In this document: positions 9,269 to 41,930 of the stretch, one piece after another
How the letters are laid out: every line of letters begins with the position of its first letter
How positions within the stretch are numbered: position 1 is the first letter of the stretch
DNA from: Dyella sp. GSA-30
GTDB taxonomy: Bacteria; Pseudomonadota; Gammaproteobacteria; Xanthomonadales; Rhodanobacteraceae
NCBI RefSeq assembly: GCF_027924605.1
Contig: NZ_AP027042.1
Span: forward strand, 4,627,524-4,691,523
Length of the DNA stretch: 64,000 nucleotides
Direction: 5' to 3'
The notes under the pieces: model-generated
What the model saw: only the letters and a program-made list of their open reading frames with translations
Databases searched by the model: none
What the model was told of the DNA's origin: nothing
Program-made: the position numbers and the translations under genes

Positions 9269-9989
9269 CACCGTCCTGGTCACCGGCTCCAGCCGTGGTA
9301 TCGGCCGAGCCATTGCGCTGCGTCTTGCCGACGCGGGTTACGACGTCGTACTGCATTGCCGCTCGCGCCGCGAGGAGGCCGACGGCGTCGCGGCACAGAT
9401 CCATGCCCTGGGGCGCCAAGCGCGCGTGTTGCAGTTCGACATTGCCGACCGCGCTGCTTGCAAGGCGGCGCTGGAGAGCGACGTCGAAGCGCATGGTGCG
9501 TATTACGGTGTGGTCTGCAATGCCGGACTTACGCGCGACGGCGCGTTTCCGGCACTGAGCGACGACGATTGGGACCAGGTTCTGCGCACTAACCTCGACG
9601 GCTTCTACAACGTATTGCATCCCCTGATCATGCCGATGATCCGTCGTCGTGCAGCCGGACGCATCGTTTGCATCACCTCGGTGTCGGGCATGATCGGCAA
9701 CCGCGGCCAGGTCAACTACAGCGCCTCCAAAGCCGGCGTCATCGGCGCGGCCAAGGCACTGGCGGTCGAGCTGGCCAAGCGCAAGATCACCGTCAACTGC
9801 GTCGCACCCGGGCTGATCGATACCGACATGCTCAGCGACGATCTGCCGCTCGAGGAGATTCTCAAGGCGATCCCGATGCAACGCGCGGGCAACGCCGAGG
9901 AAGTCGCCGCCGCCGTGCAGTTTCTGCTCAGCGCGGATGCTGGCTATATCACCCGCCAGGTGCTGGCGGTCAACGGCGGGCTGTGTTGA
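9261..9989 (+). CDS. 3-ketoacyl-ACP reductase, FabG-like (ApeQ type)
   Basis: Classical short-chain dehydrogenase of about 242 residues. It shows the NADP-binding motif TGSSRGIG (8-15), CNAG at 86-89, catalytic Asn111, Ser140, Tyr153 and Lys157 (YSASK), and VAPGLIDT after the active site. It reduces the 3-ketoacyl-ACP made by the ketosynthases. ATG 9261 has AAGGAA upstream at 9249-9254; longer versions starting at 9207 are unlikely. It is the last enzyme of the synthase block, matching ApeQ position. Confidence 0.93.
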   Translation: MTDTVLVTGSSRGIGRAIALRLADAGYDVVLHCRSRREEADGVAAQIHALGRQARVLQFDIADRAACKAALESDVEAHGAYYGVVCNAGLTRDGAFPALSDDDWDQVLRTNLDGFYNVLHPLIMPMIRRRAAGRIVCITSVSGMIGNRGQVNYSASKAGVIGAAKALAVELAKRKITVNCVAPGLIDTDMLSDDLPLEEILKAIPMQRAGNAEEVAAAVQFLLSADAGYITRQVLAVNGGLC

Positions 9990-19846: not shown

Positions 19847-20208
19847 GCAACACCTCCCTGCAAAACGGATTCGACGGAATCGCGCGTGGCACTCCACGCG
19901 GCAACCCACTCGCGCAAGACTTCGCGCCCCAGCTTGGTAATACGGTAATAGCGACGCGGCGGCCCACTCACCGAAGGCTCGACCTCGCTAGCCAGCAAAC
20001 CGGCCCCCTCGAGGTTGCGCAGCACCGGATACAAGGCACTCTGCTTCCCCGCCAACACGCCCTCGCCCACCTCTTCCAGCCGCTTGGCGATCTGGTAGCC
20101 ATACAACGCCTGGCGCGACTGCCCCAGCACCGCCAACAGCACCAGCGACACCGTCCCGGAGGCCAGTTCCTTCTGAAACTTCTTCAAATGGCTGGCGATG
20201 TCTTCCAC
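19843..20208 (-). CDS. PadR-family transcriptional regulator
   Basis: Winged-helix repressor of 121 residues: LVLLAVLGQSRQALYGYQIAKRL is the DNA-binding helix region and SALYPVLRNLEGAGLLASEV, GPPRRYYRITKLGREVL the wing and following helix. It heads the operon with the membrane protein and the DUF1579-like gene. A 19-bp palindrome at 20246-20264 overlapping a likely promoter suggests autoregulation. Confidence 0.92.
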   Translation of the reverse strand: MEDIASHLKKFQKELASGTVSLVLLAVLGQSRQALYGYQIAKRLEEVGEGVLAGKQSALYPVLRNLEGAGLLASEVEPSVSGPPRRYYRITKLGREVLREWVAAWSATRDSVESVLQGGVA

Positions 20209-20264: not shown

Positions 20265-20307
20265 GAGCATGGGCTGGAGGTCATGGGGGGATTTACGGCC
20301 AGACTTT

Positions 20308-20379
20308 GGGCATGACACCAAAGTATGTACGGGATGTACAAACATTGGTGTCACGAAGCATGTACAGACATTGGTTTCA
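20308..20379. repeat. Left end of the transposon with three TnsB-type sites
   Basis: The inward-reading tip TGACACCAAAGTATGTAC (20313-20330) is followed by two sites in the opposite orientation: GTACAAACATTGGTGTCA (20336-20353) and TGTACAGACATTGGTTTCA (20361-20379). The first two form a 41-bp palindromic pair (20313-20353) that recurs outside the right end at 41652-41692. Confidence 0.8.
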
Positions 20380-20428
20380 GCAGGATCGGGGCGAATTGAG
20401 ATTTGGCGATGAAGAAAGAGCTTAGTTC

Positions 20429-20461
20429 GACACAATAGACAAAATTTTGTCGATTATTGTG
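20429..20461. promoter_or_regulatory. Bulged palindrome before the AAA ATPase gene
   Basis: GACAAAATTTTGTC (20438-20451) is a perfect 14-bp palindrome, and the flanking CACAATA (20431-20437) and TATTGTG (20455-20461) pair as well with a 3-base bulge. It sits 40 bases before the start at 20501 and may be an operator or a 5' hairpin of the cargo pair. Confidence 0.5.
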
Positions 20462-20500
20462 TTTTATGGCAGGCTAAGCCTATCTAGAGAAGGCACTGCC

Positions 20501-21718
20501 ATGCTGCATAGGTATTCAATAAAGAATTTTCTCAGCTTCGCCGAACACACTGAGGTTTCGCTGAGAATGACCGAGAAGGTCGGGAACACGCCCTGGGCTG
20601 CACGCTCACCGTCTGGTCAACGGCTTGCCACAGCAATGGCCGTGATCGGTCCCAATGGCGGCGGCAAGACGTCGTTGCTGAAGCCTCTAGCTTTCCTGAA
20701 TTGGTTCATCGCCGACTCGTTCCATACAACGCCACCCGGCGAACCAATACCGATCAAGCCTCACTTCACCAGGCCGAACGAACCCGTCGAATTCGAACTC
20801 GACGCCGACGACGGCGAGGGTACTTTGTGGCGCTACGTCCTGAAGGCAACGCGACAGCGAGTTCTACACGAGGCCGTCTATCAGAAGCCAAAGAAAAAAA
20901 AGGCCTTTTCATACGTGTTCCTGAGAGATTGGGACGAATCAACTGACACGTATGCCATCAAGCAAAAGGGTTACGGCTTTTTGTCGAAAGAAGCAAAAAG
21001 GGTACGACCCAATGCGTCACTAATCTCGACTGGAGCTCAATACGGCGTGCAGATGGCTCAAGCGTTGGCCGGCGCAAACTTGTGCACCAACATCAACGTA
21101 ATGGGTAGGATTTATGGTGAGCAGTTCGGCGCTCTTGCCTCTGCAGACTTCCATCACAACCCCGACTTGCGTACTCAGATGGAACAGTTGTTGAGATCTT
21201 GGGATTTGGGCCTGTCTGGTGTCGATATACGCGAATTGCCTGCGACAAATTCTCCCCAGGAGGCGGAATCTACACAGGGTAATGAAGCGAAACCGCGATA
21301 TATCGCTTATGGCATACATAAGCTCAAGGACGGCTCGACTCACGAGCTTCCGATGTTCGAGGAATCAAATGGAACTAGGGCCGCTTTTGTCAATTTGTGG
21401 ATGCTTCTCGATGTGTTGTCCGCGGGCGGAATAGCCGTAATCGATGAACTCGAGAGCGATATGCACCCCCACATGCTTGAGCCGCTGCTAGGGCTTTTCG
21501 CGAACCCGAGAACGAACCCCTACCAAGCTCAGATTATTTTTACTTGCCACGCCGCGGAGGTTTTAAACCTACTCAATAAATCGCAGGTCATGCTGGTCGA
21601 AAAATCAAACTGTGAAAGCCAAGCATGGCGTTTGGATTCAATGGCAGGGGTGCGCAGCCAGGACAACCTATACGCCAAATACATGAGCGGCGCATACGGA
21701 GCAGTACCGAAACTATGA
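20501..21718 (+). CDS. AAA-type (SMC/ABC-like) ATPase, RloA/AbiL-like defence protein
   Basis: ATPase of about 405 residues. Walker A is GPNGGGKT (50-57); the signature-like EESNGTRAAF lies at 287-296, Walker B IAVIDELE at 311-318 and the switch TCHAAEVL near 350. The start MLHRYSIKNFLSFAEHTEVS is typical of the AAA_15/AAA_21 group found in phage-defence ATPases. With the overlapping RloB-like gene it forms a two-gene system like AbiL or RloAB, in which the ATPase probably senses infection and licenses the TOPRIM partner. ATG 20501 was preferred to a start at 20447 because of AGAGAAGG upstream. Confidence 0.85.
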   Translation: MLHRYSIKNFLSFAEHTEVSLRMTEKVGNTPWAARSPSGQRLATAMAVIGPNGGGKTSLLKPLAFLNWFIADSFHTTPPGEPIPIKPHFTRPNEPVEFELDADDGEGTLWRYVLKATRQRVLHEAVYQKPKKKKAFSYVFLRDWDESTDTYAIKQKGYGFLSKEAKRVRPNASLISTGAQYGVQMAQALAGANLCTNINVMGRIYGEQFGALASADFHHNPDLRTQMEQLLRSWDLGLSGVDIRELPATNSPQEAESTQGNEAKPRYIAYGIHKLKDGSTHELPMFEESNGTRAAFVNLWMLLDVLSAGGIAVIDELESDMHPHMLEPLLGLFANPRTNPYQAQIIFTCHAAEVLNLLNKSQVMLVEKSNCESQAWRLDSMAGVRSQDNLYAKYMSGAYGAVPKL

Positions 21719-22242
21719 CTCCGCCGAAAAAGAGAGCGGTACGTGTCACACTCCTGATTGTTGGCGAGGGAGACGCCGAGGTTACTTTTTTGCGGCATCT
21801 TCGCGCTCTTTATGGGGCAGAATTAGGAAGGTCTGTCACGATCAAAAATGCCTTTGGGGGCGGTGGTCATCAAGCACTTCAGCAAGCTATACGGGAAGTG
21901 CGCTTTCTGGCCTACGACAGAGTAGTCCTGATGATCGACAACGATACCCACTGGACCGATGCAGATCGAAGACAAGCAGAGAAAGCAAAAATTAGGGTGA
22001 TCGAATCCTCACCCTGCATTGAGGCGACTCTCTTGAAAATCGCCGGGCATAGACCGAAAGAATTAACTGCAGACTTGAAGAAACAGTTCGCGAACATATT
22101 CGGTTGCGAAGCACATGAGACCGATTACTTAGACAAACATTTCGGGCGCGTCGTTGTAGATCGCGCGAGAGACAGCGTACTTGAACTCCATGACTTAATG
22201 AACCACATGGGTATCGCCAAGCAAAGGAACATGACACTGTAG
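21715..22242 (+). CDS. RloB-like TOPRIM-fold protein
   Basis: Protein of 175 residues beginning with basic MTPPKKRAVR and then LLIVGEGDAEVTFL, where Glu18 fits the TOPRIM glutamate; VLMIDNDTHW supplies the DxD pair (Asp75, Asp77). This is the RloB/AbiLii pattern, a presumed metal-dependent nuclease acting with its ATPase partner. ATG 21715 overlaps the ATPase stop (ATGA), showing translational coupling. Cargo of the transposon's left arm. Confidence 0.8.
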   Translation: MTPPKKRAVRVTLLIVGEGDAEVTFLRHLRALYGAELGRSVTIKNAFGGGGHQALQQAIREVRFLAYDRVVLMIDNDTHWTDADRRQAEKAKIRVIESSPCIEATLLKIAGHRPKELTADLKKQFANIFGCEAHETDYLDKHFGRVVVDRARDSVLELHDLMNHMGIAKQRNMTL

Positions 22243-28508: not shown

Positions 28509-29663
28509 TTGACCGCTTCCGCGCTGATTACACAACCACGCCTCGTTGTCCTCGATACGTCGCACATAGTGGGACTCGCAGCCGACTGGGCTTCGGCTGA
28601 TTGTGAACGACGCGGTGCCGCCCAAAGGTTCATTCCCCACTTGATCGAACAAGGTTGGTTGCCGGCGCTTTGCTGGCACCAAGTAGAGGAACTGCTACAA
28701 CACCAGGACGACGAACTGGTTGATGCGCGGCTTCGTTATCTCCGGAGTTGGCCGCTGACAGCATGGATTAAAGCATCGGATCCTGATGCCGGCCCTGGGT
28801 CTGTTCTCGATGTGCTAAAAGCTGAGGTTGCTGTTGCTTATGCACAACCGCATGCAGACGCGCTCCAAGTTCGTGAACTCGTGCGCACTAACCTATTTGC
28901 GTTTGGCAGAGCAACTGAGGCAATTCCTGATCTGTTTCAAAACTGGCGGCTCCTGCGCACTGCACTTGTTGACCGGCAGGAAAGCGCCCGCAAAACCGCA
29001 GCGATCTCTCGTTGGCGCCCAGAAAAAATTGAAAGTACGCGGATCACTGACTGGATGAACAAACCGTTGCGCGATCTAGGAGAAGCCATTCGCAAACTCG
29101 AGCATCTCCAAAATAACCTGGCCAACGAGATTGCAGCGCGCGGCGATAAGCGCATAGTAGAACCTACGGCAATGGCGGAAGCATTCTTTTCCGAGATTAT
29201 CCGTAGCGGGCAAGCGATCTCCGCTGAGCACGCGCTCCCGCCTGCAATCCAAATTCTGGTGAACGCAGGCCTAGAACCCGACGATATCGATCTGTCAGCC
29301 ACGTTCACCGAAACCCTGGATCGCCTCATCTTTTACAAACGCTTGCGGATTGTCGCAGAGGCAAATGGACTGCCCTTTCCTGATCTGAAACGGATCGTGA
29401 CCCGAGATCGGCTTCCAGTCTCTATAGTTGAGGAAAGCATGCGGCTCCACGCCCATGACCAACCGGAACGCAAGGGTAGTGATCTGAATGACGTCCACCT
29501 GCTGTGCCTGGCCCCCTACGCCCATGTGACCTACGTGGACAAGCGAACGCTAGAGAGCGTTCGTCGGGCACGAAGCAAGGACTTCGTTTTCGCAAAGCTC
29601 ATTGGACAAGTCAGCAAAGCAAGTAACTACCGTAACATTTCCACCGAGCTCACAGCACTGTGA
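28509..29663 (+). CDS. PIN-like nuclease domain protein
   Basis: Protein of about 384 residues. LVVLDTSHIVGLAADW gives the first PIN aspartate (Asp16), WHQVEELLQH the conserved acidic residue near 60, and GSDLNDVHLLCLAPYAHVTYVDKRT (about 325-350) the remaining acidic positions followed by the core strand. The middle is a helical insertion including a likely coiled coil (EAIRKLEHLQNNLANEI). PIN domains cut RNA in toxins and defence systems; that role is inferred here. The TTG start has no clear Shine-Dalgarno site and no ATG is available upstream. Cargo of the transposon. Confidence 0.62.
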   Translation: MTASALITQPRLVVLDTSHIVGLAADWASADCERRGAAQRFIPHLIEQGWLPALCWHQVEELLQHQDDELVDARLRYLRSWPLTAWIKASDPDAGPGSVLDVLKAEVAVAYAQPHADALQVRELVRTNLFAFGRATEAIPDLFQNWRLLRTALVDRQESARKTAAISRWRPEKIESTRITDWMNKPLRDLGEAIRKLEHLQNNLANEIAARGDKRIVEPTAMAEAFFSEIIRSGQAISAEHALPPAIQILVNAGLEPDDIDLSATFTETLDRLIFYKRLRIVAEANGLPFPDLKRIVTRDRLPVSIVEESMRLHAHDQPERKGSDLNDVHLLCLAPYAHVTYVDKRTLESVRRARSKDFVFAKLIGQVSKASNYRNISTELTAL

Positions 29664-29866
29664 TGTGCAATTTTGAGATCCTCCGTAACTAGCAAGTCAG
29701 GAGCCGATCAGCCTTCTGTTACAGAATGGAGTCAAAAATCCTTTCCCCGCGGAACAATTAGTTTCTTTATTCACTGATCAAGATCTGAAAGAAAGGCAGA
29801 CTCTATATAGTACTTGCGGCATTTTCCCCGAAGCAGCATGCAAATCTGGATTCGCGCGCACGGCAT

Positions 29867-32800
29867 TTATGATTCCGTGGATTCGACAGCAAGGGTCGGT
29901 TCAAGCACGAAAAGCTCATCAACCGCACCTAGACCTGAACGTTGTCGATAGCAGTAAAAACTTGTATTTAAGGGCACTCGCTTGAATGCATCTGTCTCAT
30001 AACGGCGCATCATAAGCTTAGCAAGCTCGCTGTCATTGGAGACTAAGTGCTGCCCAGTATCGGGAGGAAAGGCGGGCCCCGCATGACCGCCTGTTGCGGC
30101 AATGACAGCAGCCACTCTTATACATTCGTCGATAACACTCTCCCGAACGTACGCCTCACGTAACAGGAGCGGCAGATTGATTGCCCGCATCACCAATGTG
30201 GTGCGACGCGCATCAACTTCAGGGATTTTCTGTACATAAAGCATGGCCATTCCGGCCAGTGTTCTGGTGTTTGGATCGAAGATCACTAGATGGGCATGGC
30301 GAGACTCCTCCCACATATCCACATCATCGGAAGTGCATAGAGCTGTCGCCTTACGGGCGAAAAATGCTGCAGGAGCCTTAGATACTGATGCAATCAACTC
30401 CGTCTGACCTTCCGCGTCTCGAAATGCTGAGCGGCGTACTTCCGAAAGCCAGCGGGTTAGCACCGGAGAAAGACAATCAAGCAAGATTTTGGCCGCAACA
30501 CCCGGCGTCGTTGCCGTCTGACCCACGGCGCGTGGAAGCGCTTCTACGATAAAAGCTGGGCTAGTAGCTTGCTGATCACACGCTTGTACGGCAACCGGCA
30601 ATCGTTCGTGAATCCAATCATTTAGCGCAGCCATATCGGCAGGAGCTGTAACAGGATCTCGGAATATCTCGCCCAGCTGTGCGAACCAAGGTCGTACATT
30701 TTGGTCTTCTGCCAATAGCGCCAGAAGAAGAGCCCAATGCCCAGCTAGTGACTCTAAGCTGGCAGCCGGATCTGTCAGCCGTTGCTGATTAAGAACCGAG
30801 AGTGCGTGTACCTCATTTCCGAGAGTCCAGGCTTCCGCCCATCTTCCGACTTGCGCCAACGCGTCTAGTTGACTATCCGGCAACGCCGCCACACTTACCA
30901 AGTGCCGTCGAGTCCAGCGCATCACATGATGTCTTGCTCCCAAAGGCGCAAATGCGCGTACTTGGCGCTGCAGTCCGGCCACCTTGGGCCAAAGTGTTCT
31001 CACATCCTCATGGGCCACGACATATACGTATGCGACGGCCTCCATCTGAGAGGGCTCCAGCTCTCGACCGACCGGCCCGAGTCCACCAAGTAAGCCTGCA
31101 TGTGCGCGGGCAATGCCACGGCGTGCGGCGCGCAGATCAAGATTGGAAGCTAATCCTGCGCGAATGAGGCTTGGAACCAAAACACCCTCGCCCGCGGCAT
31201 AAAGCTTTGGTAAACGCGCAAGCAAGATCTCAATCAGATCTTCCTTCGTGTGCTTAGTAGTTCTAGCAGCATCCGCCAACTCCATGAACAACATATCAAG
31301 GGTGCCGGCGACGGTGTAAAAGGTGTCGCGGCGCCACGCTTCGTTAAGGATGGCCTCCTCCAAAGATGCAGAAGGCCCACCCCTTAACCTGATCGCCTCG
31401 CTGCCCCAACCATGGTCATAGTGCCAACGGGTTAGTTGTCTCCAACTACGAAGCTTGCGCTTATCGTGGAGATAAGCGAGAAATCCGTCATCTAACCGGC
31501 ACAACTGCATAAGTTGTCCACGTTTAGACAGGTCTTTGATACCGTAGGCTTTCTGCAAATAGCGAACGCTAGCGCTTCTCCCACCTTTTAGTGCTATCTC
31601 CGCAACAAAATCACTCCACTCCCCCAGTGGAGGGCGCCCAAAAGCAGCATGCAACGGCAGAAGTTCCAATACCTTTCTGCGGTCACGAGCTACAAATGCT
31701 GAGTGCAAGGCAAGCATATCTGCACTAGTCGACGCTCCGATGGAGCGTGCAGCATCTGCGAACGGCGCGAATGAGTCGGCGGTACCAGCGGCTAGGTATC
31801 CTGGTCCAGAGGGAAGATCGGAAAGTGACAAACCTGAAGCTAGAAGCAAATCAAGATGAGTAGACGTTGGCACCGTATGTCGATAGTCGTAGGCGGAGAT
31901 CCAGCGCTGCCAAGCTATAAGGTCCGCAAGGGTAGCGCCACGTTGACGCAGATACTCGACTAAAGAAGTCGAAAGATCACCACTACTGTTGAGCAAATCA
32001 TTGAAGGCAGCACAATCATCTGCATTTTTTGCCCCGACTGTATTGAGAACAAAATGCCATCTCGTCGGCGATACTAACCATACTGAGGAACCGCAGGCGA
32101 CAATGGCTTCGTCTAGAGAAATTTCTTTCTGCCGTAGCAGGCTCACCACAGCGAGTAGTAATTTTGGTGTGATCTCATAACGATCATATGTCTGATGCAC
32201 TGTTCGAAGAGCTTCGATTCCAGCACCCGCCTTCTTCAGTTGCTCAAGGCAGCGCCAAAAAGCGATGCCAAATCGACGCTCATCCGCGCCTGCAAGGTAC
32301 ATGTAAATGGAGGGAAGGTTTGGAAGATCTAGGTCTTCTTTACTTACTAACAACCCGTGCTGTTGCCAAGACACCAAAAAAGAGGCCGGTAACTTGAGAA
32401 GCGCGTCGGTCAGCTTCGCTAACTCCGCCCCAGTTCGCACACCGAGGTGTCGTGCCACGCGCATTCGAGCGATACCTAATGTACGCGCCTCCACGACCTG
32501 ACTCCGGTTAGGCGCACCGTCAAAATGACGAAGGCGATAGTCCAAAGAGAGATCTAACGAAAAAAGAGAACGCCCTTTACCGTCATCGGTCATCTGAGCG
32601 ACGACCATAGCGCGCCCCTCATAGGTCGTCACACCAATGATCCGGTTCCGAATCCGTCTCATCGTGACCTGAGTATCAACAGCCCACCAAAGCCATTGAG
32701 GACGGCGAAAGAGCCGGCGCGGCAACGCGGCATCAGCATTGGGCAATCCCAACGCGCGACACGCCAGATCGAGCCGATCAGGTGTAAGTCGATCGAGAGA

Positions 32801-33064
32801 ATTGGCTACTCTATCGCGAAAATATCGGATAACGTCTTTGCCGCGCCTGCGAGATAGACCGTCAACTAGTACATCCTCACGTTGCCTCCATTCTCTTCGC
32901 ATATCGGATGGACAGCCCTCCAAGACTTCACGACGGAAATCCCGATAACGCTGGCGAAATGATTGAGCCTCAGATGGATCGGTTTTGTGACCCCCAAACC
33001 GGATTGGCATCTCGATGGCAGGTTTATAGACACGCGACTGACGTTCCAAGACACCCTCGGACAT
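29867..33064 (-). CDS. Unrecognised 1065-residue protein
   Basis: Very large protein with no family I can name. Most of it (about 30-860) reads as alpha-helical repeats rich in Leu, Ala and Arg (LSLDEAIVACGSSVWLVSP, LRQRGATLADLIAWQRWIS). The last about 190 residues differ: LVIFDPNTRTLAGMAMLYV, MRAINLPLLLREAYV and VIDECIRVAAVIAATGG look like a mixed alpha/beta domain, possibly GNAT-like, though uncertain. No signal peptide or membrane segment. ATG 33064. It is convergent with the PIN-like gene and divergent from the small membrane-protein gene. A defence or sensor role is suggested only by context. Confidence 0.8.
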   Translation of the reverse strand: MSEGVLERQSRVYKPAIEMPIRFGGHKTDPSEAQSFRQRYRDFRREVLEGCPSDMRREWRQREDVLVDGLSRRRGKDVIRYFRDRVANSLDRLTPDRLDLACRALGLPNADAALPRRLFRRPQWLWWAVDTQVTMRRIRNRIIGVTTYEGRAMVVAQMTDDGKGRSLFSLDLSLDYRLRHFDGAPNRSQVVEARTLGIARMRVARHLGVRTGAELAKLTDALLKLPASFLVSWQQHGLLVSKEDLDLPNLPSIYMYLAGADERRFGIAFWRCLEQLKKAGAGIEALRTVHQTYDRYEITPKLLLAVVSLLRQKEISLDEAIVACGSSVWLVSPTRWHFVLNTVGAKNADDCAAFNDLLNSSGDLSTSLVEYLRQRGATLADLIAWQRWISAYDYRHTVPTSTHLDLLLASGLSLSDLPSGPGYLAAGTADSFAPFADAARSIGASTSADMLALHSAFVARDRRKVLELLPLHAAFGRPPLGEWSDFVAEIALKGGRSASVRYLQKAYGIKDLSKRGQLMQLCRLDDGFLAYLHDKRKLRSWRQLTRWHYDHGWGSEAIRLRGGPSASLEEAILNEAWRRDTFYTVAGTLDMLFMELADAARTTKHTKEDLIEILLARLPKLYAAGEGVLVPSLIRAGLASNLDLRAARRGIARAHAGLLGGLGPVGRELEPSQMEAVAYVYVVAHEDVRTLWPKVAGLQRQVRAFAPLGARHHVMRWTRRHLVSVAALPDSQLDALAQVGRWAEAWTLGNEVHALSVLNQQRLTDPAASLESLAGHWALLLALLAEDQNVRPWFAQLGEIFRDPVTAPADMAALNDWIHERLPVAVQACDQQATSPAFIVEALPRAVGQTATTPGVAAKILLDCLSPVLTRWLSEVRRSAFRDAEGQTELIASVSKAPAAFFARKATALCTSDDVDMWEESRHAHLVIFDPNTRTLAGMAMLYVQKIPEVDARRTTLVMRAINLPLLLREAYVRESVIDECIRVAAVIAATGGHAGPAFPPDTGQHLVSNDSELAKLMMRRYETDAFKRVPLNTSFYCYRQRSGLGAVDELFVLEPTLAVESTES

Positions 33065-33208
33065 AGCTTCATCTCGGATTTATCGGCCAGCGCCGATAAA
33101 AATGAAGCCCAATGCGCAGATTTGGGTAGGCCCAGACGGCGTTGCCGACCTCCCTGGAACATCACTATGATTGGGTTAGGGGCTATGCCGGTTACAACGA
33201 GCTGGAAT

Positions 33209-33607
33209 ATGGAAGATACAGACGTCGACGCAAAAACAGTCATTAAGGCCCATCAGGACCGTTCCGAAAAGGAATTCAAGAAAGCCAAGTTGGAATGCAT
33301 GCGAAACATGGCAACTATGACTGCATACAGTTTCGGCTCCAGCTATCTGTTCTTCCAGCGACCCAAAGTCTTGGGTTCGCCACTCATCAGTGTGGCACTC
33401 GGTGGGATTCTGTTCTTTATCACGCTTTGGGGCGTAGCGAGTACCGCCGAGATCTTCCTTGATGCTGCCATAGAGCGCCATATCGACATCCGTAATCCCA
33501 AGTGGCAAAGCGGGCGGCGCAAAGTCCTCCTTTTTTGCATCCTTATGGCCATCTTTCTGTGTTTTGCAACAGTCCCTTACTTGGTTATGGAACTACCTCG
33601 AAAGTGA
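33209..33607 (+). CDS. Small membrane protein of unknown function
   Basis: Protein of about 132 residues with an acidic and charged cytoplasmic start (MEDTDVDAKTVIKAHQDRSE) and two strong membrane segments, ISVALGGILFFITLWGVA and VLLFCILMAIFLCFATVPY. Not recognised. Starts at 33185 or 33209 are both possible. It is divergent from the 1065-residue gene, with the starts only about 145 bases apart, and precedes the DUF4238 gene by 22 bases, so it may share an operon with it. A membrane effector would fit the cargo theme but is a guess. Confidence 0.62.
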   Translation: MEDTDVDAKTVIKAHQDRSEKEFKKAKLECMRNMATMTAYSFGSSYLFFQRPKVLGSPLISVALGGILFFITLWGVASTAEIFLDAAIERHIDIRNPKWQSGRRKVLLFCILMAIFLCFATVPYLVMELPRK

Positions 33608-33629
33608 CCGACCAAGTAGAGACAATGCC

Positions 33630-34652
33630 ATGCAGCAACTACGCAAAGACAATCACTACGTGCCGCAGCTATATTTAAAGCAATGGTCGCGCAACGGCAA
33701 AATACCTACGTATAGGCTACTAGTACCAAACGATAACTGCGATCATTGGAAAGAACACTCGGCCAAGAGCATAGCCTTTCACCAACACCTCTACACGTAC
33801 GTAGTCGGTCAGGGAGAGACGGATGAATTCGAGCGCTGGCTTGATCGAGAATTCGAAAATCCAGCTGAGGAGGCAATCAACCGAGCGATCAACGGTGAAC
33901 GGCTCAGCCGCGACAATTGGAGCCAGCTAATTAGGTTTCTTGCCGCCCAAGACGTACGGACTCCAGTACGCCTAAAAGAATTTCTCACGCGACAGAATGA
34001 GACATTTCAATCCTTCATAGATGCAACGCTAGCCAACTCTGTCGCAGAGCTCGAAAAGGCAGCAAGACTCGGAATCCGTCTACAGACGCCCAAAAGAGAT
34101 CCAAACGACATATTCCCGGTTAAGGTCACCGTCGCACGTAGTACAGAGGGCGGAGGAATCATTCAAGCCAAAGGCATTGTGGGTCGACGCCTGTGGCTCG
34201 CGTGTTCCCGGCATATGTTGACTAGCACCATATCGTATTTGATGGCGCACCGATGGACCATCCTTCATGCTCCGGAAGGTGTGACTTGGCCAACTAGTGA
34301 CAACCCTGTCATTCGGCTTAATTTCGTAGACGCCAATAATTACGACTTTCGGGGCGGCTGGGGGCGTAAGAACGGAGAAATCCTCCTTCCTCTGAGCTCT
34401 ACACATCTCCTCTATACGAAAATTGGAAATCGCACCTTTAGTCGAGGCACGGTTTTGGATGAGGGCACGGCGCGCATGATACGGCGAATGCTCATCGAGC
34501 ACGCGGATCGGTTCGTTTTCGCTCTGGATAAAGGCGACATTCATCTGATCCGCCCACGCAAGGTTTGCTCGGAAACCTATAAACGCGAACAACTCGGTTG
34601 GAAAAACTGGCACCATGAGCAGAGCCAAGCAGAAGCAGGCCTTTCACTCTAG
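33630..34652 (+). CDS. DUF4238 domain protein
   Basis: Protein of about 340 residues starting with the family hallmark KDNHYVPQLYLKQW, followed by NPAEEAINRAINGERLSRDNW and, in the second half, TWPTSDNPVI and ILLPLSSTHLLYT. DUF4238 proteins are frequent in mobile islands; a nuclease or defence-related role has been suggested but is not established. ATG 33630 was chosen because the family begins here. It follows the small membrane-protein gene closely on the same strand. Confidence 0.82.
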   Translation: MQQLRKDNHYVPQLYLKQWSRNGKIPTYRLLVPNDNCDHWKEHSAKSIAFHQHLYTYVVGQGETDEFERWLDREFENPAEEAINRAINGERLSRDNWSQLIRFLAAQDVRTPVRLKEFLTRQNETFQSFIDATLANSVAELEKAARLGIRLQTPKRDPNDIFPVKVTVARSTEGGGIIQAKGIVGRRLWLACSRHMLTSTISYLMAHRWTILHAPEGVTWPTSDNPVIRLNFVDANNYDFRGGWGRKNGEILLPLSSTHLLYTKIGNRTFSRGTVLDEGTARMIRRMLIEHADRFVFALDKGDIHLIRPRKVCSETYKREQLGWKNWHHEQSQAEAGLSL

Positions 34653-34800
34653 GTAGCCACTCAGAATGTGCTTGTACCCCCGGAGTTCAAGCGGCATCTC
34701 TAAGGCAGACATCCAAGTAGACATTTGGAAGGCGTGTCAGCTTGCTATGCCCATAAGTACAGCGTAGCGTGCTTAATCGCCGACTAACCTCTTCCATCCC

Positions 34801-36363
34801 ATGCCTACTGAAACTCAACACAGGGGACCGAGCTCGGCCACTCCTGTGGCTGAGTATGTGAGGATGTCCACGGACAAGCAGGACACCTCGGTAGCGAATC
34901 AACGAACTGCCATTGCTGCGTACGCTAGTACCCATCACATGGTCGTGGCACAGAGCTATGTGGATAAAGGGCGTAGCGGACTGGACCTTGAAGGCCGCCC
35001 GGCGCTTCAGCGTCTCCTGGATGACGTCCAAAAGCACTGTACGGGGTGCACCGCCATCCTCGTCCTAGATGTCAGTCGTTGGGGACGCTTTCAGAACGTG
35101 GATGAGTCCGCCTTCTACGAGTTTCTCTGCACCCAACACGGTCTGCGCGTCATCTATGTCGCCGAGCCCTTTACAGGAGGCGAAGGGCCACTGCATGCGG
35201 TCCTCAAAAGTCTAAAGCGATCCATGGCCGCTGAATACAGCCGTGAGCTGTCGGCCAAGGTCTTCGCTGGCCAAGCTCGATTGGTTCGCGCAGGTTTCGC
35301 CATGGGTGGTCCTGCTGCCTATGGGCTGAGCAGGATGCTGGTCGATGCATCGGGTAAGCCTCGGTGCATCTTGAAGCCTGGTGAACGCAAAAGCATCGCC
35401 ACGGATCGCGTTCGCCTGGTGCTCGGGCCGCGTGATGAGGTGGCCGTCGTACGCTGGATGTTTAAGCAGTCTGCCGCCGGCGTCAGCATGAATGACATCG
35501 CAAAGCAGCTCAATCAGAAAGGGAAGCGTCCGGCGAGAGGTGGCGCGTCTTGGAGTGCATCCACGATCAAAGGCATGCTTGATGACGAACGCTACTTGGG
35601 CAAACTCGTCTTCGGGCGAGACCCGTCACGGAGACTCTCTCAGCCCGATCCATCGCAGCCAGAGCCCGAGCCTATTCGTATGGATCATGCGTTCCCTGCC
35701 ATTGTCACGCAGGAGTTGTTTGATGCTGCCCGGGAACAGCGCGAGCTAAGATCTAGAAGGCTTACGGACGATGAGATGCTGGAAGCCTTGCGAGAGCTTT
35801 GGCAGCGCGAGGGCCGTATCAATTTCCATCTGATGGCCACCGATCCAAATACACCTACCTCGCAAGCCTACCTTCACCGCTTCGGAAGCTTGCGAGCAGC
35901 CTACAAACGCATTGGCTACATCCAGGAGCGGGACCTAAATTACGGAGACATACGCGATCGGATTCGGGTATGGCTTCCCAGTGTGATGGGATGCGTACGA
36001 GAAGCCCTTGAAGACGATGGCTCAACGGTGACTCAGGAAGGGCGCATGCTCCGTATTGACGAGACGTGGTCCATATCGTTCCATTTGATGCAATCGTCCC
36101 AGGTGGGTCACGGGAACATCCGATGGATCGTGCCACGCTTTCGTAGCACCGCGGACATTCTGGTTGGCATTCGCATGGACGTGAGAGGGGAGCGACCCCT
36201 GGACTATCTGATTCTTCCGGCCGTTAGCGCGAAAACGTGGCCGGACGTGATTCAGAACAGTCCCGATGCGGGTGCTCGCTTCTATCTGTTCGACTCGCTT
36301 TGCATCCTTCGCGAACTGGCCACCCTTTCCATGGGAGTTCCGGATCATGCATGCGACGGATAA
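34801..36363 (+). CDS. Large serine recombinase
   Basis: Recombinase of 520 residues. The resolvase domain shows EYVRMSTDKQDTSVANQ with the nucleophilic serine in RMSTDKQ, VLDVSRWGRF and VLKSLKRSMAAEYSRELS; the recombinase domain follows (GPAAYGLSRM, SMNDIAKQLNQKG, WSASTIKGMLDDERYLGKL). Such enzymes catalyse site-specific integration or inversion. The region after residue 320 lacks an obvious zinc ribbon and is followed by an unfamiliar about 150-residue tail. It lies inside the Tn7-like element and may be cargo or the mark of an older nested element. It overlaps the next gene by 17 bases. Confidence 0.88.
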   Translation: MPTETQHRGPSSATPVAEYVRMSTDKQDTSVANQRTAIAAYASTHHMVVAQSYVDKGRSGLDLEGRPALQRLLDDVQKHCTGCTAILVLDVSRWGRFQNVDESAFYEFLCTQHGLRVIYVAEPFTGGEGPLHAVLKSLKRSMAAEYSRELSAKVFAGQARLVRAGFAMGGPAAYGLSRMLVDASGKPRCILKPGERKSIATDRVRLVLGPRDEVAVVRWMFKQSAAGVSMNDIAKQLNQKGKRPARGGASWSASTIKGMLDDERYLGKLVFGRDPSRRLSQPDPSQPEPEPIRMDHAFPAIVTQELFDAAREQRELRSRRLTDDEMLEALRELWQREGRINFHLMATDPNTPTSQAYLHRFGSLRAAYKRIGYIQERDLNYGDIRDRIRVWLPSVMGCVREALEDDGSTVTQEGRMLRIDETWSISFHLMQSSQVGHGNIRWIVPRFRSTADILVGIRMDVRGERPLDYLILPAVSAKTWPDVIQNSPDAGARFYLFDSLCILRELATLSMGVPDHACDG

Positions 36364-36784
36364 AAGACGTTGGATACGCGAACAGCAGATGATCGCGTCG
36401 CTGGATATGGTTTACCACCTTTGCGCGCGTCATTGTCGATCCATCGCAGCAGCCTGCCTGCGCTTGCGCGACGACCCCATTTATGAAGATGTCTTGGGGC
36501 GTGATGGATACCGGCTGTCTTCGGTTGCCACAAAGCTCCTTGAAGAACCTGCGCACGCTCAAGGCACTCCCATGTTGCGCCTCGCGATAACCCGGCGTTT
36601 GCTGCTTCAAGTGATGGATCGTAAGGAGGTCGTCGTATGGCTGGCACGCGATCATCCAGAAACGTTGTCCATTCTGCTCAATGCGGCCGATTTCGATGGA
36701 CTGGGCGTGGGTGATTTTGAAGAAGACCCTTTGCCTGTAGCGAAACCATGGAGGAGACGCATCAAAGCTAGCAACTTTCGTTGA
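36347..36784 (+). CDS. Unknown protein coupled to the serine recombinase
   Basis: Helical, basic protein of 145 residues beginning MHATDKRRWIREQQMIASLD. No known domain recognised. Its start lies 17 bases inside the recombinase gene, which indicates translational coupling and a shared function, perhaps as an accessory or directionality factor. The last about 130 bases are antisense to the end of the following minus-strand gene. Confidence 0.6.
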   Translation: MHATDKRRWIREQQMIASLDMVYHLCARHCRSIAAACLRLRDDPIYEDVLGRDGYRLSSVATKLLEEPAHAQGTPMLRLAITRRLLLQVMDRKEVVVWLARDHPETLSILLNAADFDGLGVGDFEEDPLPVAKPWRRRIKASNFR

Positions 36785-37053
36785 ATCCAGCCGAGACGTC
36801 GCTGCCGGACCAATACCGCCATGTTCAGCTCATGCAGGAAGCTGCTTGATGTCGCCCTGATGGCTACTTGAAGTCCGGACTTGATGGCAAATTCTAGATT
36901 AAGGGCTGCCGCAGTAAGACCGGTCATTCCCAACCTCTCGGCACGTTTAGCGACCTCCCGTGATCTGAAGCATGCTTCAACATGCTTTTCTTCGAGGAGA
37001 GATGTCACTGTCGAGATGCCGCCACTCAGCAGCAATTGAACATCTTCCGTCAT
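36652..37053 (-). CDS. Unknown small protein, tail antisense to its neighbour
   Basis: Protein of about 133 residues, MTEDVQLLLSGGISTVTSLL then a helical region with AKRAERLGMTGLTAAALNLEFAI and a basic, serine-rich C-terminal tail. Not recognised. AAGGAAG shortly before ATG 37053 supports translation. The 3' third overlaps the recombinase-linked gene on the other strand, which is unusual, and the low-complexity tail suggests that the true gene or its end has drifted. Reality is moderately uncertain. Confidence 0.45.
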   Translation of the reverse strand: MTEDVQLLLSGGISTVTSLLEEKHVEACFRSREVAKRAERLGMTGLTAAALNLEFAIKSGLQVAIRATSSSFLHELNMAVLVRQRRLGWIQRKLLALMRLLHGFATGKGSSSKSPTPSPSKSAALSRMDNVSG

Positions 37054-37174
37054 GTTGGCTTCCTTTCTTCCGTACAAGGAAGCCTATGAGACCGATCTGG
37101 CGTCGCCCATAGAAATGTTCCGAAATTTGAACTGGCGTTGGCTCACAAGTTCACGCACCTACCATGCCACGTGT

Positions 37175-37714
37175 CTATCGCTGATCCGCTGCGGCTTCCT
37201 TGATGCGTTCGATCAGCGTGCGCTCTGGCTTAATTACCACCGTCTGATTCACCGACGTATTGATATGCAGGCGTAACCGCTTCAGCCACCGCTCGCTGGT
37301 CGCCTCAGGATAATCAGCGAGTAGCCACTTGGACCACTTAAAGTCCTCATCGGAATAAGTGAACGTCGCGCGTTCTCCATGTGTTACCTCTTTGGGCATC
37401 GTCTCGGAATAAGGGCCACCGAAATTTTGCATGCCAAACTTGTATCCGCTCTTGGCCGGCGGGAACTTCCAAGACACGGAGTCCACTCGCACAGGCCGCT
37501 CGCCCAAGTTCGTTATCGAAAGCGTTATCAGATTCCGTATATGCTCACCGTTGCCTACGATTGATCGGACTCCGATGGTGGCATAGAGCTTGACCCGACT
37601 TTGTCGGCTCGCCAGCCACAAGGAGACGATCACGGCGCCGGTCGTGGCGAGCCCAGCCACCCAAGTGCCCACCGCGTTCCAGACGTTGATTACCTGATCA
37701 GTGCTGAGACTCAT
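37175..37714 (-). CDS. Membrane-anchored protein of unknown function
   Basis: Protein of about 179 residues with one N-terminal membrane helix (AVGTWVAGLATTGAVIVSLWLA) and a soluble domain of predicted beta strands: NLITLSITNLGERPVRVDSVSWKF is typical of an immunoglobulin-like fold. No catalytic motif. ATG 37714 is chosen since the hydrophobic segment then sits near the N terminus. Similar one-helix proteins are common in accessory regions; the function is unknown. Confidence 0.65.
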   Translation of the reverse strand: MSLSTDQVINVWNAVGTWVAGLATTGAVIVSLWLASRQSRVKLYATIGVRSIVGNGEHIRNLITLSITNLGERPVRVDSVSWKFPPAKSGYKFGMQNFGGPYSETMPKEVTHGERATFTYSDEDFKWSKWLLADYPEATSERWLKRLRLHINTSVNQTVVIKPERTLIERIKEAAADQR

Positions 37715-37747
37715 AGCATCCCCTGTTTGGCGGCCTGATGTTACCAA

Positions 37748-38044
37748 TACCCACCCGGCCGCCCATGAGGCAACCTTTTCATGCCCAATATCAGTGGGCG
37801 CTCTTACCGGCTACGGTACCCAAGAACAGGAAAGTCAATAAATAGACGATAACCCCCAACCTCTTGATACAAATTGAAAATTTTGTCCACACATATTGAA
37901 CATTTGCTAAAGCGAACTTCGAATTTGTAGGATAATGAAACATTATAGGGCTCCACTCAAAAGGTACTTGGCTCCTCGCAACATACAGCGTCGCAGCCAG
38001 ATCTTAGCCAGTGGGCACAAGGATCAAGGGCGTTTAGGATTAAC
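37748..38044. promoter_or_regulatory. AT-rich intergenic region before the HEPN-like gene
   Basis: About 300 bases without a gene. The stretch 37830-37950 is markedly AT-rich and probably holds the promoter of the rightward HEPN-like gene at 38045. I see no specific operator. Confidence 0.35.
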
Positions 38045-39220
38045 ATGAAATCTCAAGTCATGCCGAAAGAAATGCACAAAACGCTCCGTAAACAGAAGCC
38101 CCTGAGGCCTTACCGCCTTCTCCGTATCGAACTGAGACGAATGCGACACCTGTACGACGCGTGCCTATATACGTTCTCCACCACCAACTCGTACTTAGAT
38201 GCACAACTAAAAGCGGGAACAATTTTACCTAGCTCAAAGATAGTCGTACCAGACACGGAGCGAGTGCTTGCATGGTCTCCAATTGAGCTGCTTGAACGAA
38301 TGAAACGTACCTATCCAGAGATGCTTAGAGCTTCGCTGCTCGTCCGAGCTGTCTCACACATGGAAAATTACCTCGTAGACTTGTTAAATGAAGTGGCAGC
38401 TCGGAGCCTCACTCCATTCAAGTCTCAAGACAAGATTGTGTCGTTCTCCCAGGCTCACTTATTGTCATTTGATAGTGCAGATCAGCTTCGATCCCATCTT
38501 ATTAAATCGGAATGCAGAGCACTAAGCGGCAAAGGATTCAGAGATTTCGAAAAGTACTACAAGAGACATTTCAATGTCATATTCTCGCAAGCCAAGGTAT
38601 CTATCGAAGAAATTGATGGTGTCTATGCTCGAAGGCACTTACTCGTACACGCAGGCGGCGTAATCGATAAGCAATTTCAAAAAAAATTTGCACCAAATGC
38701 TCACCCTGGTCAGAGCCTTGAAATACCCGAAGACTACTTTCTGCAATCCTTGACTAACCTTGAAATTTTGGCCGAATACTGCTCTGCACGTATTGAGGTG
38801 CTTTTTCCAAAAAAAGATGATCCTGAACCACCAGCAATTGCGCAATTCATTGATGAATTTTTAGAACAACTCTCTAAGGCAGCAAAAAAGGTCAGTTCTG
38901 AATCCCCCATGCTTATTAGCTGGTTCGGGGGCGTGTTTCGAACAAGAGAGCTTCTAGACGCTCACTTTGGCGATAACTCATCCTTCCACATTGATGAGGT
39001 ATCACATTCCTTGAATGAAATACTGGTGGGGAAAAAACGCACTGGAGAGCGAGCAATACAATGGCTTGTTTGCGGCGAAAAGGCGGTCGTAGGACCATAC
39101 ATTGCTTACTTGGAATACCTGTCACGCAGAGGAATGCTAGAAGAGTTCGAAAAACACACCGTACAAAAACAAACGACGCTTCTTAAGCTCCTAAGTGCAG
39201 ACCGTTCAGCGACAACATAG
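38045..39220 (+). CDS. HEPN-like protein of unknown function
   Basis: Protein of 391 residues, lysine- and glutamate-rich and helical. The region ARRHLLVHAGGVIDKQF (about residue 197-213) contains R-X4-6-H, the RNase motif of HEPN domains, on a helix flanked by others (VSHMENYLVDLLNEVAAR). The C-terminal third is distinct (EKAVVGPYIAYLEYLSRRG). HEPN proteins are frequent toxin or abortive-infection RNases, so this is a candidate defence gene, but the domain call is from a short motif only. Base composition is clearly more AT-rich than the chromosome. Confidence 0.6.
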   Translation: MKSQVMPKEMHKTLRKQKPLRPYRLLRIELRRMRHLYDACLYTFSTTNSYLDAQLKAGTILPSSKIVVPDTERVLAWSPIELLERMKRTYPEMLRASLLVRAVSHMENYLVDLLNEVAARSLTPFKSQDKIVSFSQAHLLSFDSADQLRSHLIKSECRALSGKGFRDFEKYYKRHFNVIFSQAKVSIEEIDGVYARRHLLVHAGGVIDKQFQKKFAPNAHPGQSLEIPEDYFLQSLTNLEILAEYCSARIEVLFPKKDDPEPPAIAQFIDEFLEQLSKAAKKVSSESPMLISWFGGVFRTRELLDAHFGDNSSFHIDEVSHSLNEILVGKKRTGERAIQWLVCGEKAVVGPYIAYLEYLSRRGMLEEFEKHTVQKQTTLLKLLSADRSATT

Positions 39221-39360
39221 AACATCGTGGCCTCAAAGATCGGCCCGGCCACTGCAGATCAGTTTGGCACACTGATAGTAACTTTCGCCAATGATGTTGC
39301 CGATATCCACATCTTTTTGAACCAAGCGACAACCGTCTACTTACTACACAAACATCAGAG

Positions 39361-40254
39361 ATGGACAAGCCTGTGGAATTCAACTTGCATCAACCGCCAC
39401 GAAATAGTTCAGCTCACGCCGCTATGCATCCACCCTGGAGGCTAGCGAGGCAGTCAGCGGTATTCTTCGGCGAACGGCCAGTTAGTCCCAACATTGTGCC
39501 CGTCGCACAAGAAATGTGTAGCTGGCTGCAACAGAAAGGGCATGTCACTCTGATCACAGAGAAAGAGCGGGAAAGTCCACTTGGCTTAACTAATCCATAC
39601 TCTTATTCGGCGTCGTCCCTCGCCGCTCAGCTCTGCTCTGCCATTAACGAGATGTCGGACTTTATAAATGATGACCGAGAGACCCCATCCATCGAGACGG
39701 AATTACGGCGCATTCGGCTAGAAAGCGAACTAATCCTCCAATTTGCTCGCTTCTGCGAGGCCGCGATTAAACAGATGCTCTACTGCACAGCAATGGATGC
39801 CGATATTTATAATCGAGCGACTATGGGACGCCTTCTTGCCTTCGATTGCCTAGATTGTCGGAAGAGCGGAAAGCCGCATCTCGTCTCTTTGCTGGGGGCG
39901 CTTGCTCATCACTATCACAATTGCATCACGCTTGAAACGTGCCTTTTCGATCATTTAGCTTTTATAGGAACACGTCGGAACAAAGAGGCGGCTCACTCAG
40001 AGGCCGCAACGCCACGCTACTCTCAAGCTAGTGAATCACGTATTGCAGCGAAGGAGTACTTAGACATGGTAGGCCATGAACTGGGACACATGTGCCAGCA
40101 CATCGGCGAGATTGAAACGAAGATGATCGAGGAAATTAAGCTCTGGATCCTTCACTTTCCTAACGCTCCCTCGCCCGAAGCTCTCATGCGGATCCCTGTT
40201 CGTGTCAGGGACGTTTTGGACAATCTCGACGGCTCTAGATCGGGTGAGTCATGA
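39361..40254 (+). CDS. Unknown protein with a HEPN-like RX5H motif
   Basis: Protein of 297 residues, not recognised. TRRNKEAAHSEAAT (about residue 203-216) again carries an R-X5-H pattern within helical surroundings (RLESELILQFARFCEAAIKQML, EYLDMVGHELGHMCQHI). HELGH resembles a zinc-binding HExxH motif, but it lies in a helix with a further HxxxIGE, so a metalloprotease is an alternative. It follows the first HEPN-like gene by 140 bases on the same strand and may form a unit with it. Confidence 0.5.
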   Translation: MDKPVEFNLHQPPRNSSAHAAMHPPWRLARQSAVFFGERPVSPNIVPVAQEMCSWLQQKGHVTLITEKERESPLGLTNPYSYSASSLAAQLCSAINEMSDFINDDRETPSIETELRRIRLESELILQFARFCEAAIKQMLYCTAMDADIYNRATMGRLLAFDCLDCRKSGKPHLVSLLGALAHHYHNCITLETCLFDHLAFIGTRRNKEAAHSEAATPRYSQASESRIAAKEYLDMVGHELGHMCQHIGEIETKMIEEIKLWILHFPNAPSPEALMRIPVRVRDVLDNLDGSRSGES

Positions 40255-40411
40255 GCGAGATATGCTCGGCATATTGTCCAAAATGGATGCTCTTACCGCG
40301 AGGCTATGAACTATACCCATGACCAACGATAGCAGTACTCCATGCTGAAGCATCAGAAGTAAGTTAGCCTGATTTCGAACGATCAAGTGGTACAGGGACA
40401 TCGAGCCGAAA

Positions 40412-41404
40412 ATGCACATCTACCTGGATGAGTCAGGTTCGTTTGGAGCGGCGACCCATCTAGGGTCTTGGTGCGTGGTTGCCGCCTATGTCGTTCCAGA
40501 AGCCGCCATTGATGGCATGTCTTTTACCCTACGGGAATACAAGCGTATGGCAGGCTTCCCGCCGACTTCTGAAGTGAAGCGACGTCATGCGCCAATAGCA
40601 GCCTATCTTCGCCTTCTTAATAACTTGGCCTCCAACGATGGATTTCTTGTAGCAGTTGCCACTGATGCAGGCGCTAACGGCGACGTGCTTGCCAATCAGC
40701 GGTTGCAGGTTCATGAAATTCGGTCAGCTATTGGGCTCCATACTGAAGCCGAGCGATGCGCTGCATCGGACTTAGCTTATGCAGTTGAGCGCTTATCGCC
40801 GCAACTCTATGTCGAGCTGATATGTAGGCTTTTGCTCATTTGGCGGGTGATCAAACTCAGCACGCTACGCTTCGGTCTCTCCTACCCTGAGGCACTGCAT
40901 GCTTTCCGCTGGCGATTTGACGCGAAGAATACCCAGATAACGCAGTTTGAACAGGCCTTCGGACCGACTTTCATTGGCCTAGCTTTGAATATGTCTCGAA
41001 AAGATCCTCTATTGTTACTGCCTGGCGGCGATCGGAGTTGGCTAGATAGATACCGTCGCACGCCCCCGGACCCTCTTCCCGCCCATGCTGCAGACGCAGT
41101 GTGGCTAGACCCCACAACACTCATTACTGACGATCTTCAATTCGTCGATTCTCGCGAAAGCGAAGGAGTACAGGTCGCAGACCTTCTTGCATCGGGAATT
41201 GGTAGCTGTCTCCGTCAGCGCTCTGCCACCCCACGCCGTCAGGGTCGCCTGTTGGGCCGCTTGATGCTCCGGCTCGACGACATCGATGATGCCGTTGTCC
41301 TTGTCGGCTTCGACTCTTCCCAGAAAACTTCAATCTCGACAGAAACTCTGTCAGCTCTCCACAGAATGAAGCTTGCGAGCCACGCGCTGCTTCGCCATAG
41401 GTAA
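40412..41404 (+). CDS. DUF3800 domain protein
   Basis: Protein of 330 residues. MHIYLDESGSFG and, near the C terminus, LQFVDSRESEGVQVADLLASGI are the two defining motifs of DUF3800, which has an RNase H-like fold with conserved acidic residues; nuclease activity is suspected and the family is common on mobile elements and near defence genes. Last cargo gene, 60 bases before the first right-end repeat. Confidence 0.85.
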   Translation: MHIYLDESGSFGAATHLGSWCVVAAYVVPEAAIDGMSFTLREYKRMAGFPPTSEVKRRHAPIAAYLRLLNNLASNDGFLVAVATDAGANGDVLANQRLQVHEIRSAIGLHTEAERCAASDLAYAVERLSPQLYVELICRLLLIWRVIKLSTLRFGLSYPEALHAFRWRFDAKNTQITQFEQAFGPTFIGLALNMSRKDPLLLLPGGDRSWLDRYRRTPPDPLPAHAADAVWLDPTTLITDDLQFVDSRESEGVQVADLLASGIGSCLRQRSATPRRQGRLLGRLMLRLDDIDDAVVLVGFDSSQKTSISTETLSALHRMKLASHALLRHR

Positions 41405-41464: not shown

Positions 41465-41692
41465 GCACATACTTTGGTTGTCAAAGTATCGCCGCCCGCC
41501 CTAGCTGACACCATCTAACTAGTTGTTTTTTTATATCCATGTACGTACTTTCCCCTCAGCTGACAAGCAAAGTACGTACATAACAGCTCCCAGGTACACA
41601 TACTTTGGTTATCGCACCTGCACAGACTTTGGTGTCATGCCCACTTGGGCATGACACCAATGTACGTACCGGTTGTACAAACATTGGTGTCA
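41465..41692. repeat. Right end of the transposon and adjoining extra end copy
   Basis: Related sites, reading toward the right tip: GCACATACTTTGGTTGTCA (41465-41483), GTACGTACTTT (41541-41551), inverted CAAAGTACGTAC (41568-41579), GTACACATACTTTGGTTATC (41594-41613) and the tip TGCACAGACTTTGGTGTCA (41619-41637) with TGCCC to 41642. After ACTT (41643-41646) a second copy of the left tip begins, GGGCATGACACC (41647-41658), and closes as a 41-bp palindromic pair at 41652-41692. The span 41693-41930 shows no gene. Confidence 0.78.
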
Positions 41693-41930
41693 ACCTGCTC
41701 AGCAGGCAATGAGACAGACAGTCTGCCCTGAGCCACTCCCCATCCCTCTAAGCAAATTTGATCCTTGGTTGAGAGCGTTCGGCCCTTCTAGTCCGTTGCC
41801 AGCTTTACTGGACGACAGCAACCTGGATGGATTACCCGGAACGTCTGCGCCCTCAGCCCAAGGCCACGATTTGCCGTGACCTCAAACCCATCCGTAGTTA
41901 GTTGCGTGCCGTTCCGGTAGGCGGTCCGGG

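Follow-up and report, generated by a model that had tools for sequence, protein, structure and literature searches.

Introduction

Tn7 carries separate tnsA, tnsB, tnsD and tnsE genes, is targeted to glmS and produces a 5-bp duplication of its target, and the Tn5053/Tn402 elements encode TniA, TniB and TniQ, with a transposase devoid of TnsA and with res sites as targets. In a further branch of the Tn7-like elements, TnsA and TnsB are fused in a single protein, and the structures 9bw1 and 8v32 of this branch (PDB) correspond to what we take to be the type I-B2 CAST. According to PMC11406308, insertion of a second copy close by is strongly inhibited by Tn7 and by some other transposons, which is known as target immunity. 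The ends and att sites of Tn7-like elements, as well as TnsAB fusions, are treated in PMC8649781 and PMC10293859, and neither a padR target nor stacking is described in the portions of these two papers considered here. Likewise, no description of the family studied here was met among the papers looked at, which lay mostly outside subscription journals.

Here, we analyze a stretch of 64,000 nucleotides of Dyella sp. GSA-30 (contig NZ_AP027042.1), hereafter called the window, that contains a Tn7-like element of 21.3 kb (element 1, 20307-41643). Just outside its right end (RE1) there is a second left end (LE2), in addition to the one that belongs to the element (LE1). We consider it very probable that this arrangement is the product of the head-to-tail serial stacking of Tn7-like elements at one padR attachment site, LE2 being the left end of an older element.

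The element and its transposition genes

The family of element 1 is Tn7-like as judged from its predicted transposition proteins, namely a TnsAB fusion, TnsC and TniQ (Table 1). None of the three has a match in NCBIfam. A profile of seven TnsAB members matches both halves of the 898-aa chain of 9bw1 (E 3.4e-55), and the residues D102/E115/K117 and D441/D511/E547, which are presumably catalytic, are invariant. The fusion is predicted to join a TnsB-type DDE transposase to a TnsA nuclease. A four-member TniQ profile finds the TnsD of 8v32/9bw1 (E 7.6e-22), and a TnsC AAA ATPase accompanies this TniQ/TnsD protein, as in Tn7-like elements. Other characteristics of this class are also found, such as several candidate transposase-binding repeats at both ends, deduced from the repeats themselves and from the LE and RE profiles, and insertions that keep an almost constant distance (17-22 bp, with a mode of 20) to a conserved site.

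Two other assignments were considered and rejected. With regard to the type I-B2 CAST, no Cas family was matched among the 14 longer ORFs of the element that were scanned, and element 1 has no clustered direct repeats of at least 22 bp within 120 bp. Membership in Tn5053/Tn402 was discarded on account of the TnsA-like half of the transposase and of the insertion at the padR locus.

As for the cargo, the pair of genes closest to the left end also matches Pfam, with AAA_21 at E 6.9e-31 and RloB at E 9.5e-7, the latter just short of its cut-off. For the proteins encoded at 29867-33064 (1065 aa) and 28509-29663 (384 aa), searches of Pfam, NCBIfam and PADLOC at E 0.001 gave no match. The DUF4238 gene (33564-34652) has a counterpart with 75% protein identity in the stack of one relative (G039), and the remaining queried cargo proteins of element 1 have no match in that stack.

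Table 1. Features of the locus, with positions in the window (LE, left end; RE, right end)
Feature	Position	Strand	Evidence or remark
padR-family regulator gene, adjoining the attachment site	19843..20208	-	Pfam PadR E 3.1e-20; left flank conserved up to the core in many fetched relatives
Attachment core CATGGGCTGGAGGTCATG (family type CATGGGCCTGAAGTCATG)	20268..20285	+	Tip 21 bp past the core here
ACTT, probable target-site duplication (left copy)	20303..20306	.	Exact match on the right side only CTT (3 bp)
LE1, with L1 toward the tip and L2 and L3 inward	20307..20380	+	Repeats and LE profile
Cargo: AbiLi/AbiLii-like ATPase and RloB-like pair	20447..22242	+	PADLOC AbiLi E 3.3e-69, AbiLii E 6.1e-13
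Predicted TniQ/TnsD-type target selector, 461 aa	22728..24113	-	Pfam TniQ E 3.7e-7
Predicted TnsC-type AAA ATPase, 326 aa	24110..25090	-	PDB TnsC 8fcu E 1.4e-10
Predicted TnsA-TnsB fusion transposase, 800 aa	25087..27489	-	Seven-member profile matches the 9bw1 chain
Further cargo: DUF4238, large serine recombinase, weak HEPN match, DUF3800, unknowns	28509..41404	.	HEPN match below its cut-off
RE1	41467..41643	+	RE profile 136.8 bits; RE1 among the profile seeds
Spacer between RE1 and the next left tip: CT (ACTT if the ends are CCC/GGG)	41644..41645	.	
LE2, two-site type, very probably of an older stacked element	41646..41721	+	LE profile 57.1 bits; LE2 among the profile seeds

The junction at the right end of the element

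The right tip of element 1 (...GTCATGCCCA) ends at 41643 and, after two bases (CT), a left tip (TGGGCATGACACC...) starts at 41646. The initial annotation had proposed that a second transposon tip lies just outside the right end, separated from it by ACTT; the tip is confirmed, and the spacer is right when the ends are read as CCC/GGG, which makes it 4 bp long. The two tips had also been described as head to head and they do face each other, but both elements run in the same direction and RE1 meets LE2, so that the arrangement is head-to-tail.

The 41-bp unit at 41652-41692 is identical to the one at 20313-20353 in 37 of its 41 bases. In both LE1 and LE2 it consists of an 18-bp inverted pair with a 5-bp spacer, which would be the pair of transposase sites of the left end, that is, an outer L1 and an inward-pointing L2. 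Chance may be excluded as the origin of the junction, since its 22 bp were not matched in any of 100 shuffles of the window and a search of the whole 5.5-Mb genome with the junction as query found LE1 with an E value of 8.6e-13. Besides LE1, the only sequences that this search matched at E ≤ 0.001 were the junction and its own palindrome, three matches in all, and no third copy of the left-end pair was found in the genome.

The likeness of LE2 to other left ends goes beyond 41692, to about 41721; for instance, it amounts to 87% over 76 bp with the left end of G139 and to 83% over 82 bp with the junction of G136. A second left end in direct orientation could also have been made by a tandem duplication, or by unequal recombination, of element 1, but there are 4 differences in 47 bp between LE1 and LE2, and the part of LE2 past bp 47 has no L3 and is similar to left ends found in other genomes. 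Additionally, neither a copy of the DNA of element 1 (blastn) nor a copy of 12 of its proteins used as queries (tblastn) is found in 20 kb on the left or in 102 kb to the right of 41721, and TnsAB has a single match in the genome. Such a duplication is, consequently, very improbable.

The padR core as a probable docking site

A core of the type CATGGGCCTGAAGTCATG is located about 60 bp upstream of the padR start, and the left flanks of the fetched relatives are alike as far as this core, where similarity ends. In these relatives, a transposon tip (a 10-mer with up to 2 mismatches) lies 17-22 bp beyond the core, with a mode of 20, at 40 of 49 core sites, and the other nine have no tip; as the loci were fetched by their match to the ends or to the core, the fractions given here and below are not unbiased frequencies. 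The 49 cores are those that passed a filter for the upstream operator, which leaves out some loci with a left end, such as G159, G160 and G157, where this end is located at 20-21 bp from the core, and the 40 tips include two weak ones with 2 mismatches (G211 and G134) and two right ends. The latter correspond to G057 (L049:365) and G152 (L196:5425), which hold the element in reverse, with its right end toward the padR core; a left end toward padR is the usual orientation, not an absolute one. Left-end-like sequences away from the padR core were also observed in G013 (L047:9958) and G016 (L048:10033), possibly at other targets or as old remnants.

The core remains intact after insertion, and it is also present without a tip. 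For instance, in G214 only a short gap, in which a tipless core is found, separates padR (Pfam E 9.9e-21) from a cyclophilin-type isomerase gene (E 1.2e-19). Because tips are found 17-22 bp from the core and the core is also found at tipless sites, the 41-bp unit need not attract insertion, and the sequences favor the padR core over this unit as the likely docking signal. The serial insertion at one hotspot that had been suggested for this locus is supported, although its signal is more simply the padR core than the 41-bp unit. In G138, a left tip occupies the att position and no right end is found in the fetched stretch (about 5.8 kb downstream are covered), so that the same sequence at a locus with no element, which had been named as evidence against the original proposal, does occur in part. 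We read this lone tip as a scar of the same stacking process.

Alternatively, the left end itself, with its 41-bp site pair, might be the target, the bound transposase or TnsC drawing the next element. In fact, newcomers have landed on an older left tip or 1-3 bp within it, as in G039 and G132, where reading of the junctions places them 3 and 1 bp inside it, respectively. However, such landings are also expected if the distance to the core sets the position, the innermost element lies 17-22 bp from the core with or without a left end beyond it, and tipless cores exist. As the distance to the core explains the position of the insertions, an attraction by the left end is unneeded, and we regard it as quite unlikely.

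Stacked elements in related genomes

The tandem copies whose search in related genomes had been recommended were found, in the form of stacked elements with the same RE-LE junction. The junction query matches 48 of the 233 genomes of the family of the window, and a query with the core plus LE matches 71; TnsAB at no less than 54% identity is found in six genomes, including that of the window (in G224 only as fragments), and any TnsAB match at E ≤ 0.001 in 32, counts that may be low, as few candidates were scored per genome (three for the junction query and four for TnsAB). A scan of contigs gave one relative only, Rhodanobacter sp. A1T4. The short pattern TGGGCATGACACC with one mismatch was uninformative, as it matches 226 of the 233 genomes, the places listed being mostly those with one mismatch.

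Right-end matches amounted to 37, eight of which were dropped because they lack an intact tip. After the 29 intact right tips, a left tip starts within 0-6 bp in 15 cases, compared with 93 of 18,328 control windows (0.5%). G052 is a weak case among these 15 RE-LE junctions and, beyond them, a further left tip with a small deletion can be seen by eye after the right end in G039, at 9749. In the window, RE and LE abut with a short spacer, as they would in an excised circle or a transposition intermediate, with a functional RE-LE junction, frozen in the assembly; such an origin is scarcely credible, however, as many genomes have the same arrangement with different elements and LE2 is distinct from the left end of element 1.

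Two other kinds of objects were observed in these loci. In G028 (L039:7246), G037 (L042:10060) and G002 (L041:14643), the left tip that follows a right end is reduced to about 7-15 bp; these short remnants look frequent for random deletion, and an erosion up to the padR promoter behind them is only a guess. In G157 (L152:4286-5174), an element of 889 bp has both of its ends complete and a single kept ORF, with a product of 142 aa (DUF6632); another left end is found after the element, whose flanks have no matching duplication.

Target duplications were studied in 20 LE/RE pairs, since nine of the 29 intact tips had no usable left-end partner. With the ends read as TGGG..CCCA, an exact duplication of 4 bp, instead of the 5 bp of Tn7, is found in 11 of the 20 pairs, compared with 6 of 376 mismatched pairs. 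The duplication is of 3 bp in two pairs (the window and G147), and the remaining seven have no match of at least 2 bp, so some of them are not one insertion or have changed since. A 5-bp duplication was rejected, as it fits at most six of the 20 pairs and only with the asymmetric ends GGGC..CCCA, and other boundaries of the ends fit fewer pairs. In G220, CGGT is found before the first element, between the first and the second, and after the second, apparently as a consequence of two successive insertions at one site (the first element spans a contig gap, its ends being on different contigs).

A model of serial insertion and the possible fate of the older element

We infer that the TniQ/TnsD-type protein of this family recognizes the conserved core upstream of padR and that, via TnsC, TnsAB would be directed to insert about 20 bp from it. 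As a rule, the left end would face padR and 4 bp of the target would be duplicated. As the core survives, a later element would land at the same spot, by then occupied by the tip of the resident left end, and would push the resident outward. The model rests on features of the sequence, namely the ends, the near-fixed distance, the 4-bp duplications, the stacked junctions of relatives and the transposition genes. As for what happened in the window, the newcomer would be the intact element of 21.3 kb, and 41646-41721 would be the left end of an older element whose recognizable right end has presumably been lost.

Some observations count against this model: the seven pairs with no duplication match, the reversed elements of G057 and G152, the duplication of the window, of which only 3 bp (CTT) are exact, the lack of a right end for LE2 and the host-like G+C to the right of it. 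LE1 lies 21 bp from its core, and the 3-bp match would best be read as an ACTT duplication that has lost one A at the right tip, LE2 having originally been 20 bp from the core. With regard to the right end, a canonical one for LE2 was not found in the genome or in the 80 kb to the right of the window. Thus, from the options initially raised for the second tip, the end of a related element is supported, as to its kind, by the left end itself and by the same RE-LE junctions in relatives, and a solo remnant is not separable from the end of a decayed element; LE2 would be a scar, or else the tip of an old element that has decayed.

To the right of LE2, the G+C is similar to that of the host, with values of 0.588 up to 67.7 kb and 0.608 up to 128 kb (left flank, 0.624; element 1, 0.525), and the scanned genes of this part have an ordinary appearance, so that little of the old element may remain. 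The cyclophilin-type isomerase gene that borders the core in G214 is found at window coordinate 128,077, about 108 kb to the right of LE1; for the same two reasons this gap need not be all island, and the host-like G+C makes it uncertain that it is one large island. Additionally, a diverged RE-LE-like junction is found at 67,727-67,913 (L217:3727-3913), 3.7 kb beyond the window and 26 kb to the right of LE2, with 21.8 bits for RE and 10.6 bits (E 0.066) for the weak LE half, the best scores in the reversed sequence being 7.5 and 5.8; it possibly belongs to an older subfamily stacked at the same locus.

LE2 might then be only a tip that was left after the deletion of the older element, with nothing of this element beyond it, a reading that we hold as tentative and that is a version of the stacking model, not its opposite. 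It agrees with the lack of a canonical RE2 and with the G+C, as well as with the shortened left tips of G028, G037 and G002 and the lone tip at the att of G138. By contrast, the continuation of the left-end similarity to 41721 does not favor it, and the diverged junction 26 kb further right suggests that older material may be decayed, not gone.

Elements without transposase and target immunity

The length of the element is known for 10 of the 11 pairs with a 4-bp duplication, and TnsAB is present in two of these (G039 and G028). The other eight (G002, G160, G136, element 2 of G220, G132, G242, G226 and G052) measure 2.5 to 21.2 kb; no TnsAB, TnsC or TniQ match at E ≤ 1e-5 was found in their fetched loci, nor any TnsAB match at E ≤ 0.001 in their genomes (that of G160 is 86% complete). 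For instance, the 2.5-kb element of G160 has one kept ORF of at least 90 aa, which codes for a beta-helix protein, and the transposase-less 8.9-kb element of G136 (L138:6982-15361) carries an RND efflux set and a TetR regulator, with the 4-bp duplication in its flanks. The simple reading is that these elements were moved in trans; alternatively, their transposase was lost after insertion. With less than even confidence, we suggest that they form a cassette system, in which small transposase-less elements of one or a few genes with full Tn7-like ends, which rare autonomous relatives would mobilize in trans, accumulate at a single padR dock in the order of their insertion, free of target immunity.

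Stacked left ends are alike at 41.4 of 47 bp and random pairs at 42.0 (seven stacked and 140 cross pairs), with a lower value for the stacked pair of G160 (34 of 47). The idea that stacking requires diverged ends has no support in these values; to judge from the sequences, stacking does not appear to need such divergence, and its occurrence with similar ends would speak against a strict target immunity.

Comparison with known systems

If stacking is true, these loci would lend themselves to the study of how target immunity is avoided or lost in Tn7-like elements, as a natural system with several stacks whose insertion order could be read from the 4-bp duplications. The results also point to a docking site upstream of padR and to a 4-bp duplication in a TnsAB branch, as well as to a transposase-less set (an efflux set, single genes) with the ends of rare autonomous relatives.

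The closest system is the TnsAB-fusion branch of 9bw1/8v32, as the TnsAB, TnsC and TniQ/TnsD of the window match those chains and both have several transposase-site repeats per end and a near-fixed distance from a conserved locus. Unlike that branch, element 1 has no Cas match among the ORFs scanned and no clustered direct repeats, and its family has a target upstream of padR, a 4-bp duplication and, in the fetched loci, frequent stacking. With Tn7 at attTn7 (glmS) it shares an att that lies away from the insertion point and remains unaltered, which makes re-insertion possible, and it differs from Tn7 in its TnsAB fusion, its padR target and its 4-bp duplication. Tn5053/Tn402 likewise have a three-gene transposition operon with TniQ, whereas the transposase described here has a TnsA-like N-terminal half. 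Finally, integrons also collect cassettes, as these elements would do if the cassette reading is correct, but here the collection would be carried out by a DDE transposase.
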